From Fuerstiella marisgermanici (GTDB lineage: Bacteria; Planctomycetota; Planctomycetia; Planctomycetales; Planctomycetaceae), in the NCBI RefSeq assembly GCF_001983935.1, contig NZ_CP017641.1, positions 7,800,001 through 7,864,000 of the forward strand: a stretch of DNA of 64,000 nt, read 5' to 3'. The position numbers were made by a program, and so were the translations under genes. Shown in pieces: positions 58,771-64,000 of the stretch. Positions within the stretch are counted from its first letter, which is position 1; each line of letters begins with the position of its first letter. The notes below the pieces were generated by a model. That model was given only the letters and a program-made list of their open reading frames with translations. It did not search any database and was not told the DNA's origin.

Positions 58771-59043
58771 CATCGAACTTTTGTCACAGCGGCAAGGTCT
58801 TAGGTGGCCTTCGGCGAAGTGCCGCCCAGTGGGTCCGTTTTATCGGGAAGGGCTTTCGGCTTAGCGTGTCGAGTTTATTATAGCCAGATTGATCCGAGTC
58901 GTTTCACCCGCAGCCGAAGGCGCAGGCGTTGCAGGGGACGGCTGTGTCGCAGCAGAAGCGGAACACGCACGGACGCCGAACAGAGGACGCCTGCGCCTCC
59001 GGCTACGGGGTAAACAATCCACTGACTTCGCCGCCGAATCGCG
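58771..59043 (+). repeat. Array 1, unit 1 of ~270-bp tandem repeat
   Basis: The unit starts CATCGAACTTTTGTCACAGC, includes a conserved AGGTGGCCTTCGGCGAAGTG box at 58802, and contains the long hairpin at 58900-59014. It is followed directly by a second similar unit. It has no coding content. Confidence 0.85.
58900..59014 (+). repeat. Long-hairpin repeat copy in array 1
   Basis: A 115-bp inverted repeat. The left arm starts GTTTCACCCGCAGCCGAAGG and the right arm ends CCTCCGGCTACGGGGTAAAC, with about 29 bp per arm. The spacer contains GGGGACGGCTGTGTCGCAGC and GAAGCGGAACACGCACGG, shared with the other copies. Arms differ from those at 59172 at a few positions. Confidence 0.9.
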
Positions 59044-59307
59044 CATCGAACTCTTGTCTCAGCGGCAAGGTCTTAGGTGGCCTGCGGCGAAGTGCCGCCC
59101 AGTACGTACTTTCTATAAGAAGGATTTTCGGCTTGGGTATCGAGTCTATTGCAGCCGGATTGATACGAGTCGTTTAACCCGTAGCCGAAGGCGCAGGTGT
59201 TGCAGGGGACGGCTGTGTCGCAGCAGAAGCGGAACACGCACTGACGCCGATCAGCGGACGCCTGCGCCTCCGGCTACGGGTTAAACGATCCAATGGCTTC
59301 ACCGCCA
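59044..59307 (+). repeat. Array 1, unit 2 of ~270-bp tandem repeat
   Basis: 264 bp, starting CATCGAACTCTTGTCTCAGC, with the AGGTGGCCTGCGGCGAAGTG box at 59075 and the hairpin at 59172. Similar along its whole length to unit 1. A partial third unit follows to about 59385, containing the box at 59339 but no hairpin. Confidence 0.85.
59172..59286 (+). repeat. Long-hairpin repeat copy in array 1
   Basis: 115 bp. The left arm starts GTTTAACCCGTAGCCGAAGG and the right arm ends CCTCCGGCTACGGGTTAAAC; the outer 15 bases of the arms are perfect complements (GTTTAACCCGTAGCC / GGCTACGGGTTAAAC). Confidence 0.92.
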
Positions 59308-59385
59308 CATCGCGCGATTGTCACAGCGGCAAAGTCTTAGGTGGCCTTCAGCGAAGTGCCGCCCAGTGGGTCCTTTCTGCCGGGT

Positions 59386-59737
59386 CTCACTGCCTCAACC
59401 TTGAAGCGTTCGGGAGACGCGCATAACAGTTTGCGAATTCAGTGTTTGCGTTGAATGAGCTTTGAACCCTTGGCAACTGCACAGTCCATATTGTGTGATA
59501 ATTTGTAACACAATTCAACAAATTCTGTACCGGATTGTGTACCAGTCCGTCCATGCTCAGGTGCCCACGGAGTGACGAATGCTGAAGACTTTGGTCGCTT
59601 TAAAATGGCCGGTTTTGCGGCGGCGGAATCCGCGACTGATCACAGCCGGTGGGTTGCGGACCTCCTGAACTGAACGACTCAACAGTGCCAGTTTGACGAC
59701 TCGACAACAGGGTGGCTGTGATCTCATGGGAGAAGTC
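59386..59737. other. Non-coding stretch after array 1
   Basis: About 350 bp with no gene. It is richer in A/T than its surroundings around 59490-59530 and has a small inverted repeat there (TTGTGT / ACACAA). A decayed piece of a mobile element or a promoter-poor spacer are both possible. Confidence 0.4.
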
Positions 59738-60568
59738 TCAAGCCGTCTGAGCTGGACCTGTGTTCATGAATACGGCGTGGCAGGTTGCGGGAGTCGCCGT
59801 CTGAATGTGTTGACGGCGTTCGAACTTTTTCACCACATGGAGCCAGATGTCGATGGTGGTGCCGAGCCGTTCCAGCAGCGGTGGAACGGCGCTTTTTATG
59901 TAGCCGCGTTTTCCCGAATGCAGTTGACGGCCCGTCCAGTCCACCAGTTGCAGATACTCCGCCAGCGTCATCGGCAGGCAGCCGTGGTTGCTGACGCGAC
60001 GGTTCGTGCTGCGATCGCGAACCTTCTTTCGCTGTGGCTCCAACGCTATCGGACTCAGCCAGCCCGCCTGCTGCCCGTGTTCCACGCGAACATCCTTCGC
60101 ATCAGCGGTTTCCACTTCTTCAGAGGACTTCACATCGCCCACGCGATCCTGAACGCTCGTGAAGTCGCTGCTCTCCAGCGAATCGGCGATGCCTGCACGA
60201 ATCGGATTCAGATCGACATACGCCATGCACGCCGCGATCGCTTCTTCACTGTCAAGCACCGTACTCTTTAAGCGACCTTCCCAAAATCTACCGGTGCATT
60301 GATCTTCAGCGTTCGCAAGTCGAGCAATCACTTCGCTCGTGCAACGCATGAACCACGACACGCTCGACAACCGCTTGCGACGCTCGGCCAGAACTTCTTT
60401 GTCACCGTAAATACTGCGGAGGTCGGTTTCTGTCGGGTCGGCGGCCGAACCGTCTTCGTTGCGTCGCTGCGGAAACAACTGCCACCAGCGGCGAGCCACC
60501 TCTTCATCCGACCACGTTTCCACAACGTCTGGTCTCGTGCGTAAGACACAGTGAAAGTGGTTACTCAT
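59738..60568 (-). pseudogene. RAYT-type (Y1/HUH) transposase, 5'-truncated
   Basis: A 276-residue frame that begins at MSNHFHCVLRTRPDVVETW. HFH is the catalytic HUH motif, which in this family normally lies some 70-90 residues into the protein; a stop codon sits three codons upstream. So the N-terminal strand and helices are missing. Downstream features are intact: VSWFMRCTSEVIARLANAED, TGRFWEGRLKSTVLDSEEA, and CMAYVDLNPIRAG with the candidate catalytic Tyr. These proteins process single-stranded REP hairpins. It is head to head with another truncated copy, sharing two bases at the start. Confidence 0.85.
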
Positions 60569-60947
60569 GCACGATCACGTCCACGCTCTCGTGTGGTTCC
60601 CCGAGCCTTTTCAAATCAGTCCGTTCATGAATAAGTGGAAGGAACTGACGTCCAAAACATTGAAGTCCGTGCTGCGTGAGCGTTTCGCGAATTATTGGTC
60701 GCAGATCGATTCGTCCGAGCCGATCTGGCAGTCACGTTACTACGGCTTCAACATTTGGTCACGCTCGAAGGTGGAGGAGAAACGGGATGACATGCACCTG
60801 AATCCCGTCCGGGCGGGCCTGGTACAACGAGCCAACCACTGGCCATGGAGCTCGGCCCGCTGGTATCTGGAACGTCAATCTGTTGGCTTGCCGATTCGCT
60901 GGCCGCCGGGATTGGAACATGATGACCAGTTCGCAACCGATCTGTAG
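60567..60947 (+). pseudogene. Second RAYT-type transposase fragment, 5'-truncated
   Basis: A 126-residue frame that begins MHDHVHALVWFPEPFQISPF; HVH is the HUH motif, with a stop five codons upstream, so about 50 N-terminal residues are missing. Later motifs are EPIWQSRYYGFNIWSRSKVE and MHLNPVRAGLVQRANHWPWS, typical of REP-associated transposases. Belongs to a different subfamily from the opposite-strand copy. Both frames start within two bases of each other, so their missing parts were lost at the same junction. Confidence 0.85.
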
Positions 60948-60965
60948 TCGAAGCCCACGATGATC

Positions 60966-61019
60966 CATCTTCTGCCTGCGGCACCCAACCGCCATGAACG
61001 GCGGTCGGGCCACCCTGCG
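60966..61019 (+). repeat. 54-bp REP-like repeat, copy 1
   Basis: Contains GCCTGCGGCACCCAACCGCC, then a small hairpin ACCGCC-ATGAAC-GGCGGT and GGGCCACCCTGCG. It is repeated in the same orientation at 61692-61745. The internal palindrome and the neighbouring RAYT fragments suggest a REP-type element. Confidence 0.88.
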
Positions 61020-61020
61020 T

Positions 61021-62977: not shown

Positions 62978-63226
62978 TTAGAGGGCGAGGTTTTTCCAGA
63001 GGTTGTGCCAGTTGTTGTTAATGTTGTGAGCTTTCAGTGCGGTCACTGCTGATGCTCCAATCGGCGACCAGTGCATGCCAGGGCCTTTCAGGCGAATTCC
63101 GACCAACTGTTTGGCCGTGGATTCGATCATGCCCGAGCCGATCTGCCAGTTGTTCTCACGGTAGGCGGGATAGTTCGTCAGGCCCACTCGACTTCGGAAG
63201 TAACCCAACAAGATCGCGGGAAGCAA
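62978..63226 (-). pseudogene. ISKra4-like transposase C-terminal fragment
   Basis: An 82-residue frame matching the end of ISKra4-type transposases: LTNYPAYRENNWQIGSGMIE, STAKQLVGIRLKGPGMHWSP, then ALKAHNINNNWHNLW. The frame is cut at its 5' side by the G-rich tract starting near 63229, so at least 300 codons are missing. No inverted repeats were found. It is a remnant with no expected activity. Confidence 0.8.
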
Positions 63227-63228
63227 TA

Positions 63229-63280
63229 AGGGGGGGGGGGTAAGGGGAGGGGGAGAAATAAGGGGAAGAAATAAGGGGAC
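63229..63280 (+). repeat. G-rich tandem ([13 protein letters not shown]) tract
   Basis: A run of eleven G at 63230-63240 followed by TAAGGGGAGGGGG and two [17 protein letters not shown] units. Five runs of four or more G lie within about 50 bp, giving the potential for a G-quadruplex on the plus strand. Marks the breakpoint of the ISKra4-like fragment. Confidence 0.8.
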
Positions 63281-63314
63281 ATTCTGCTTTTTCCAATAAG
63301 TTCAATGTCCCCTT
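63273..63314 (+). repeat. Palindrome AAGGGGACATT / AATGTCCCCTT
   Basis: A perfect 11-bp inverted repeat with a 20-nt loop containing CTGCTTTTTCC. It resembles REP-type hairpins linked to RAYT proteins. On the plus strand it is followed by TTGCG rather than a T-run, so it is not a good terminator. Confidence 0.75.
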
Positions 63315-63401
63315 TTGCGTTCCCGTTCTGCAGGTTGATGGCTAAGATGAAGTCTCTATTCGTCGTTTGGGCCAAGTTGTCCTGGTGGTAAATCATATGC
63401 C

Positions 63402-63636
63402 GATGTCGCCTTCAGCGAAGTGCCGACAGGAGGGCCTTTCTACCGGAAGGGGCTTTCGGCTCAGGATGTCGAGTCTATTACAGGCGGATTGATCCGAGTC
63501 GTTTAACCCGTAGCCGAAGGCGCAGGCGTTGCAGGGGCGGGCTGTGTCGCAGCGGAAGCGGAATACCCACGGACGCCGATCAGAGGACGCCTGCGCCTCC
63601 GGCTACGGGTTAAACGATCCACTGACTTCGCCGCCA
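63402..63636 (+). repeat. Array 2, unit 1
   Basis: 235 bp. It starts with the GCCTTCAGCGAAGTGCC box and contains the hairpin at 63501-63615. Matches array 1 units over the segment GTCGAGTCTATTACAGGCGG-ATTGATCCGAGTC and the hairpin itself. Confidence 0.82.
63501..63615 (+). repeat. Long-hairpin repeat copy in array 2
   Basis: 115 bp. The arms GTTTAACCCGTAGCCGAAGG and CCTCCGGCTACGGGTTAAAC are the same as those of the copy at 59172; the spacers differ at a few positions. Confidence 0.92.
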
Positions 63637-63893
63637 AAGGTGGCCTTCAGCGAAGTGTCGCCCAGTACGTCCTTTCTGTCGGAAGGATTTTCGGCTTGGG
63701 GGTCGAGTCTATTGGAGCCGGATAGATACGAGTCGTTTAACCCGCAGCCGAAGGCGCAGGTGTTGCTGGGGACGGCTGTGTCGCAGCGGAAGCGGAACAC
63801 TCACGGAAGCGGAAGCGGAAGACTCACCGGCGTCGATCAGCGGACGCCTGCGCCTTCGGCTACGGGTTAAACGATTCACTGACTTTGCCGCCA
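63637..63893 (+). repeat. Array 2, unit 2
   Basis: 257 bp, with the AGGTGGCCTTCAGCGAAGTG box at 63638 and a hairpin with an expanded spacer. A partial third unit with the same box runs from 63894 to about 63930. Confidence 0.82.
63735..63872 (+). repeat. Long-hairpin repeat copy with expanded spacer
   Basis: 138 bp. The arms start GTTTAACCCGCAGCCGAAGG and end CCTTCGGCTACGGGTTAAAC. The spacer has a 23-bp expansion made of GGAAGC units compared with the 115-bp copies, suggesting slippage within the spacer. Confidence 0.9.
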
Positions 63894-64000
63894 ATGGTGG
63901 CCTGCGGCGAAGTGCCGCTCGGCAAGCGTCACCTACAGTAGGTCGTGTCGGAAAGTGACACGAGCCGAGAGCAACCATTGCATCGGCCGTACTTCCATCC

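Follow-up and report, generated by a model that had tools for sequence, protein, structure and literature searches.

Two hairpin-repeat arrays of Fuerstiella marisgermanici as probable clusters of a genome-wide REP/REPIN-like palindrome, with a divergent RAYT as its likely enzyme

What are the two tandem arrays of hairpin-bearing units that lie between positions 58771 and 63930 of a 64,000-nucleotide stretch of the Fuerstiella marisgermanici genome? This stretch, here called the window, is C1:7800001-7864000 of a single-contig genome of 8.92 Mb (G000). We consider it very probable that the arrays are tandem clusters of an element resembling repetitive extragenic palindromes (REPs) and their paired form, the REPIN, and that its cognate enzyme is most likely P0001, a Y1/HUH protein encoded 3.45 Mb away from the window. 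On that combined reading the arrays would be ordinary clusters of a genome-wide hairpin-repeat family. We describe the whole as a REP/REPIN-like system in which GTTTARC is a new tag preceding the hairpin and the REP-associated tyrosine transposases (RAYTs) form a divergent clade.

The palindrome family and its candidate enzyme

The core palindrome of the family, TCGTTTAACCCG...CGGGTTAAACGA, is dispersed through the genome. The half-site pattern GTTTAACCCGNAGCCGNAGGCGNNNGC occurs 110 times (55 + 55) when up to two mismatches are allowed, and its reversed control does not occur at all; the places of 100 of the 110 are among the matches listed. We read the window and 35 other genome stretches, accepting half-sites at up to four substitutions. 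These contain 112 half-sites, of which 108 form 54 convergent pairs, or inverted doublets. The palindromes so formed measure 109-116 bp in 29 cases and 155-157 bp in 13, within a range of 67 to 222 bp. The left end is preceded by T (49/54) and C (52/54), and the right end is followed by G (47/54) and A (46/54). Some palindromes match a 302-bp unit over the palindrome only (e.g. those at 1771481, 7501262 and 7819549). The element is therefore the palindrome, and not the unit with the short box that the array units carry. Other palindromes have different common flanks.

By a heuristic call of open reading frames (ORFs), 50 of the 54 palindromes are not wholly within an ORF, although 11 of these overlap one partly; the other four lie inside an ORF, at most 44 bp from its end. 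The neighbouring genes are in tandem at 36 palindromes, convergent at 15, divergent at one and unresolved at two. Close groups of two or three palindromes occur at eight places besides the arrays. Those around 3055951, 7050714, 7623052 and 8584076 show homology to the window's unit. Around 2650529, 5154522, 5265464 and 7983605 the palindromes are 594-723 bp apart, and at 7983605 the entire 594-bp unit is visibly repeated. The exact half-site was also found on nine contigs of metagenome-assembled genomes of Planctomycetota, one of them labelled Pirellulaceae.

How is a half-site built? It opens with the GTTTARC tag, usually preceded by C, which starts a 12-base foot; a short mini-hairpin follows (in the window, GCC-GNA-GGC). 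Of 136 distinct sites, 89 have C directly before the tag and 54 have TC. Among 115 distinct half-sites from homologue loci (see below), a 3-bp stem with a loop of 3-5 nt begins at base 13 in 70, compared with a mean of 9.6 and a maximum of 19 in 200 shuffles. When one half-site is drawn at random per locus, the base-13 stem is present in a mean of 30.2 of 44 loci; the corresponding shuffles give a mean of 3.8 and a maximum of 10 (500 shuffles), and the adjacent start positions 12.1 and 6.6. The mini-hairpin is thus conserved in place, and its stem takes 11 different forms (GCC/GGC, CGC/GCG, CTC/GAG, ATT/AAT, CCC/GGG, GGG/CCC and others), so that it has undergone compensating change. The bases directly before the stem vary: GTAG is found there in none of the 70 stem-bearing half-sites and CnGA in 4. 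GT[AG]G overlaps the stem in 3 of the 70, and some half-sites of G000 read CGTAG overlapping the stem. In the window's genome the stem is GCC/GGC in 100 of 108 half-sites, with loops GAA, GGA, GCA or AAA. The mini-hairpins were probed for 3-bp stems and the window half-site folds with 3 bp; long arms are a feature of the complete doublet.

The preliminary description had proposed a search for a transposase shared by the units. A search of the genome with Y1_Tnp gave nine places, and one of them supplies such a candidate, flanked by the same palindromes at 46 bp and 7 bp:

C1:4405526-4406167: P0001, 214 aa, Y1/HUH protein, between palindromes 4405323-4405479 and 4406175-4406330

With a profile built from 22 members of its family, six PDB sequences reach E 0.01: chains of IS200/IS605-type transposases, the best being 2xm3 (E 3.3e-4; ISDra2 TnpA), and the TnpArep entry 4er8 (E 0.0042). 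Individually, 18 of the 22 members match Y1_Tnp, and both HUH histidines and the tyrosine are invariant across the alignment. The commonest Y motifs of the homologues are YVEQNP (9), YVEDNP (9) and YVEENP (8). These comparisons suggest that P0001 is a divergent RAYT, distantly related to the REP-associated transposases; its position between two palindromes points to it as most likely their cognate enzyme. An N-terminal stretch within the first 40 residues, YGFWLPNDPRGSWSDFV, ahead of the Y1_Tnp part, is strongly conserved in the 22 members.

Tag and RAYT clade are linked across genomes. Of 397 genomes in the class, 83 have homologues of P0001, counting G000 itself (E 1e-12; 128 matches). Behind these matches we read 71 loci, 31 from the first searches and 40 picked down the list, a non-random sample that leaves out L102, where the other half of a broken gene lies. 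GTTTARC lies within 350 bp on both sides of the gene at 38 of the 71 loci and on any side at 44; altogether there are 189 tags, compared with about 7 expected from composition. Grouped by identity to P0001, the both-sided loci number 14 of 15 (at least 55%), 15 of 30 (45-55%), 7 of 18 (38-45%) and 2 of 8 (below 38%). Among 30 control loci carrying other Y1 transposases, by contrast, none is both-sided within either 350 or 700 bp, and a tag on any side is present at one (350 bp) or two (700 bp). The controls represent 30 of 32 matches and come from six of seven repeat-bearing genomes searched, G017 having no match; 20 of the 30 have the full 700 bp on both sides. In a sample of the whole phylum, 12 of 392 genomes, again counting G000, have a P0001 homologue at E 1e-20. 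Outside the class, 6 of 12 loci are both-sided, in two families (12 of 14 match places read).

Does the dispersed repeat of a genome resemble the one beside its RAYT? Pattern GTTTARCNNNNAGCCGNAGGCG matches in 9 of 10 genomes chosen for having a P0001 homologue, with 57 to 298 half-sites in seven of these, and in none of 10 other genomes; nine of the latter were shown to be without a homologue, and the tenth, G103, was not among the homologue matches. The weak genomes are G294 (one half-site), G239 (two) and G343 (none). Their RAYT-side stems are CTC/GAG, or GCC with other loops, and fall outside the pattern. Among the matches listed for G309, all but four repeats read GTTTAGCCGCGAGCC, as beside its RAYT. 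Of the 106 repeats in G375, the 50 among the matches listed all read GTTTAACG and 28 of them GTTTAACGCC, again as beside the RAYT; 11 of the 50 are located at the RAYT itself. G375 contains tandem arrays with periods of 73, ~122 and 324 bp, and arrays are therefore a habit of the family. At G375:C1:3309223-3313439 and 3821574-3822369, GTTTARC half-sites are repeated in two large tandem arrays whose periods are 324 and ~122 bp.

How might such a repeat spread? When the DNA is single-stranded each half-site would fold, and P0001 would read the GTTTARC tag together with the mini-hairpin. It would nick beside the tag and join the palindrome to a single-stranded site elsewhere, so that new copies come to lie between genes. 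From such copies, taken together with stretches of flanking DNA, short tandem arrays could arise through slippage, unequal exchange or repeated rejoining. The text of PMC8266576 describes TnpAREP enzymes as cutting single-stranded REPs at CT (or CA), rejoining the ends and reading GTAG plus the hairpin. The recognition and cutting proposed for P0001 are drawn by analogy with such enzymes, and catalysis, mobility, the cut site and the way in which the arrays formed are all inferred; a cut by P0001 at the pyrimidine-C step beside the tag is a guess as to position.

The arrays and the zone between them

The features of the window that concern us are as follows (window coordinates).

58771..59385, + strand: array 1, made up of two full units and a partial one
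58814..58825, + strand: box GCGAAGTGCCGC, array 1, unit 1
58901..59015, no strand: palindrome 1 of array 1, 115 bp, an inverted pair of half-sites, each end a mutated form of GTTTAACCC
59087..59098, + strand: box, array 1, unit 2
59172..59286, no strand: palindrome 2 of array 1, 115 bp, pairing runs 2 bp further outward on each side (TC...GA)
59351..59362, + strand: box, array 1, partial unit 3
63402..63930, + strand: array 2, made up of two full units and a partial one
63415..63425, + strand: box GCGAAGTGCCG, array 2, unit 1
63501..63615, no strand: palindrome 1 of array 2, 115 bp
63650..63660, + strand: box variant GCGAAGTGTCG, array 2, unit 2
63735..63872, no strand: palindrome 2 of array 2, 138 bp
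63907..63918, + strand: box, array 2, partial unit
19549..19664, no strand: lone palindrome of the same family, without unit flanks
59738..60568, - strand: truncated Y1/RAYT-like ORF, not of P0001's kind (NF047646 27.8 bits, cut-off 80)
60567..60947, + strand: truncated RAYT-like ORF, not of P0001's kind, from a multi-copy family that has palindromes of its own

The preliminary description had reported two arrays in the same orientation, each with two full units and a partial one, and these are seen in the sequence, with a palindrome in every full unit. Its estimate of unit size (235-275 bp) is borne out by a 212-nt repeat spaced 271 and 234 bp and by boxes spaced 273/264 and 235/257 bp. Two further statements need qualification. 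The box said to be common to all units is exact as GCGAAGTGCCG in five of the six, while the unit at 63650 reads GCGAAGTGTCG. The arms end in GTTTAACCC in six of eight cases, two deviating (58901, GTTTCACCC; 58994, GTTTACCCC). Three of the four array palindromes measure 115 bp and the fourth 138 bp. In single-strand DNA folding of two of the four, both 59170-59288 (z -7.7) and 63733-63876 (z -6.9) were more stable than all 200 of their dinucleotide shuffles. A scan of the window against Rfam at the gathering threshold gave zero matches, and a tRNA scan of the window found none.

Could the box be a dispersed repeat in its own right? At up to one mismatch GCGAAGTGCCGC has 125 matches in the genome and its reversed control 90; by itself the box is therefore only weakly enriched, and we rejected it as a separate repeat. 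The exact 12-mer occurs 14 times in the genome, four times in the window and four times beside other palindromes that have unit flanks.

Between the arrays lie two fragments of Y1 transposases, an unknown ORF, a PEP-CTERM-like ORF and the C-terminal piece of an ISKra4 element, much as had been noted before; the PEP-CTERM-like ORF scores 18.1 bits, under the Pfam cut-off of 20.7. The Y1 fragments are not of P0001's kind, since P0001 has a single match in the genome at E 1e-8. They abut head to head with a common CATG (60566-60569), each starting near its HUH motif. Copies in L057 and L061 share ~96% identity with window 60565-61019, and L033 and L046 have shorter matches at 95%; this stretch belongs to a separate RAYT family that has palindromes of its own. 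This second family has several near-identical copies or pieces with palindromic ends of their own (..GGTCGGGCCACCCTGCG), at window 60959-61019 and 61685-61745 and in L057, L061, L033 and L046. At L061:5600-6950, three palindromes of the family described here (155-156 bp) follow one another with a 594-bp period, flanked by two copies of the second RAYT. A G-rich run (11 consecutive G, then AAGGGG-type repeats) occupies window 63230-63290, between the ISKra4 piece and array 2.

Evidence against, and other origins of the repeats

Several observations count against a REP/REPIN-like family served by P0001. The protein itself is barely over the Pfam Y1_Tnp cut-off (23.7 and 24.7 bits; cut-off 23) and scores 41.3 bits with the NCBIfam RAYT model NF047646, below its cut-off of 80. 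The match to 4er8 was reached without any single stretch passing alone, and one homologue, L111, which is outside the 22 aligned members, reads EHTY instead of HUH. A 29-nt half-site folded in isolation as DNA shows no unusual stability (z 0.5), and no movement of the palindromes was seen in the data examined. No exact GTTTARC tag is present at 27 of the 71 homologue loci; we inspected 21 of these, and several have variant tags (e.g. GTTTGACCCGAGCC, GCGTAGCCGCGACGC or GTTAGCCGCAAGCC) ending long palindromes, while several have nothing. Conversely, the G000-type repeat is present at up to one mismatch in 15 genomes, and for 12 of them no homologue of P0001 was detected at E 1e-8; some of the 15 have a single site, and several of the 12 assemblies are incomplete. 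G017, with 199 half-sites, has neither a P0001 homologue nor a Y1_Tnp match at E 0.001. Beyond incomplete assemblies we have no explanation for the absence of the RAYT from repeat-bearing genomes; the text of PMC3733652 also reports known REPs that lack a REPtron. Finally, other RAYT copies in G000 are also near palindromes of the family.

Do these last points mean that the palindromes spread by some route unrelated to P0001, and that genes of its type merely collect repeats as neighbours? The many repeat-bearing genomes without a detected homologue and the palindromes beside other RAYT copies in G000 would fit. But tags stand at close range on both sides of the gene in many genera and in other classes, the dispersed repeats of G309 and G375 resemble the RAYT-side variant, and both-sided tags are absent from all 30 other Y1 loci; we find such chance neighbourhood distinctly unlikely. 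The terminal inverted repeats, the dispersal and the want of coding capacity would also suit miniature inverted-repeat transposable elements (MITEs) moved by a DDE transposase that recognizes GTTTAACCC ends. Yet no target-site duplication above control was detected at 7 boundary offsets with 45 distinct left flanks, the tags go with a Y1/HUH gene clade, and the arms contain a hairpin with compensating stems. On the flanks, tags and arms examined, we hold MITEs of this type to be very unlikely indeed. What, then, of integron attC sites in arrays that have no integrase nearby? Integron R-boxes follow the patterns RYYYAAC...GTTRRRY, which the ends GTTTAAC...GTTAAAC fit, and the genome has an integron-integrase-like gene at C1:1099022-1099984 (L066, L208; TIGR02249 339.9 bits, cut-off 265). 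A second, partial gene of this type, with a stop, lies at 7387910-7388377. However, among the 100 of 110 half-sites listed none is within 85 kb of the integrase-like gene, and within the 10 kb around it there are just two GTTTAAC motifs, both unpaired. In a unit of 235-275 bp there is little space for a cassette gene beside the palindrome, and in other genomes the tags follow the RAYT clade. An attC origin is accordingly rated extremely improbable.

A different question is whether the arrays bound a 4-kb zone that is mobile or can be excised, as the preliminary description had supposed. They are direct repeats of each other, transposase remnants lie inside the zone, and the first units of both arrays group in a small tree (support 0.947), from which an array may have been duplicated. 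Against this, both the palindrome and groups of this kind recur widely across the stretches read. The longest exact run common to the arrays is 37 bp, at a palindrome end with a few adjoining bases, and the second units are not sisters, one being nearer to a unit elsewhere (91% to 7623334 versus 89%). No empty site was found by way of the flanking genes, a weak comparison given that homologues of the left flanking gene, matched in 7 of 8 genomes of the genus (counting G000), are only 38-46% identical. Among the flanks read, the right flanking gene stands beside the left one only in G003 (L205), in pieces and in a different arrangement. With 54 palindromes in the stretches read and close groups at eight other places, the bracketing of a mobile zone is unsupported. 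The preliminary description had also suggested a genome-wide scan of the units, taking random scatter between genes, with no link to mobile DNA, or membership of a named REP/BIME (bacterial interspersed mosaic element) or MITE family, as evidence against its reading. The units do belong to repeats of a mobile-DNA type, but the outcome is largely this refuting one: they are scattered between genes and REP/BIME-like, though we found no name for the family. Nothing that we found makes the arrays the borders of a mobile island, or shows excision, and we regard an excisable zone as very unlikely.

Comparison with known systems

Has the family been described before? The earlier view that it matches no described element agrees with our searches of the open-licence PubMed Central literature, which brought up no fitting family; the figures and supplements of REP surveys lie outside this scope, and a member (e.g. 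among the repeats of Rhodopirellula baltica) may be listed there. In that literature the string GTTTAACCCG appears in seven papers, which, going by their titles, are on other subjects.

The closest likeness is to the GTAG-tagged REPs, BIMEs/REPINs and REPtrons, as presented in the text of PMC3733652, PMC6006769 and PMC8266576. Common to both are dispersed, mostly intergenic palindromes in inverted doublets, clusters with variable lengths of flanking DNA, a RAYT-like gene flanked by repeats and a conserved tag 5' of the hairpin. The differences lie in the tag and in the stem. Here GTTTARC opens a 12-base foot, whereas GTAG/GTGG stands at the foot of the hairpin; and the mini-hairpin stem is short (3 bp tested). 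PMC6006769 quotes a rule of a fully paired basal stem of 7-20 nt for REPs, beside which stand the 3-bp mini-hairpins and the long doublet arms of the present family. As RAYTs or TnpAREP enzymes are recognized by a Y1/HUH gene flanked by repeats, the P0001 family belongs with them (38/71 versus 0/30 controls); by the NF047646 score P0001 itself stays outside. Its clade's combination of HUH ([DEQ]HxH), W-K and Y (YVExNP-type) motifs fits no row of Table 1 of PMC6006769.

TIRtrons, with their TIRYTs, likewise have a RAYT-like gene between long inverted repeats unrelated to GTAG. In the text of PMC3733652 some of these terminal inverted repeats (TIRs) are self-complementary, and in some species they form moderately abundant dispersed families. 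The present repeats differ in that GGGGWSAS, found in many TIRs, is in none of 115 half-sites (first 26 bases, both strands) and that every arm carries a mini-hairpin. TnpAY1 class 3, known from Planctomycetes, Acidobacteria and Proteobacteria, also includes planctomycete Y1 proteins with atypical flanking structures that can be abundant in a genome; its text description gives a Y motif YV[VI][AENY]EQ and a foot CnGA (PMC6006769). P0001 homologues have instead a YVExNP-type motif, and CnGA precedes merely 4 of 70 stems. Of the non-RAYT systems, the MITEs of DDE transposases are marked by a target-site duplication, which the 45 distinct left flanks do not display, and integron attC sites by an integrase-adjacent array of ORF-bearing cassettes, which is not the arrangement here.

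We incline, by a small measure, towards an unnamed superfamily of tagged REPs in several classes of Planctomycetota, defined by GTTTARC, a 12-base foot, a covarying hairpin and a RAYT clade of its own. In it the target would be chosen by the tag apart from the hairpin, and not by four bases at the hairpin's foot, and tag and enzyme would diversify together by lineage. In RAYT systems a host-borne relative of transposases serves a population of tiny repeats, and, as the text of PMC8266576 has it, their choice of site was worked out on a few GTAG examples. The planctomycetes would add natural variants of tag and stem, each beside its own enzyme and spread over many genomes, from whose covariation the rules of recognition could be read and then tested in vitro.

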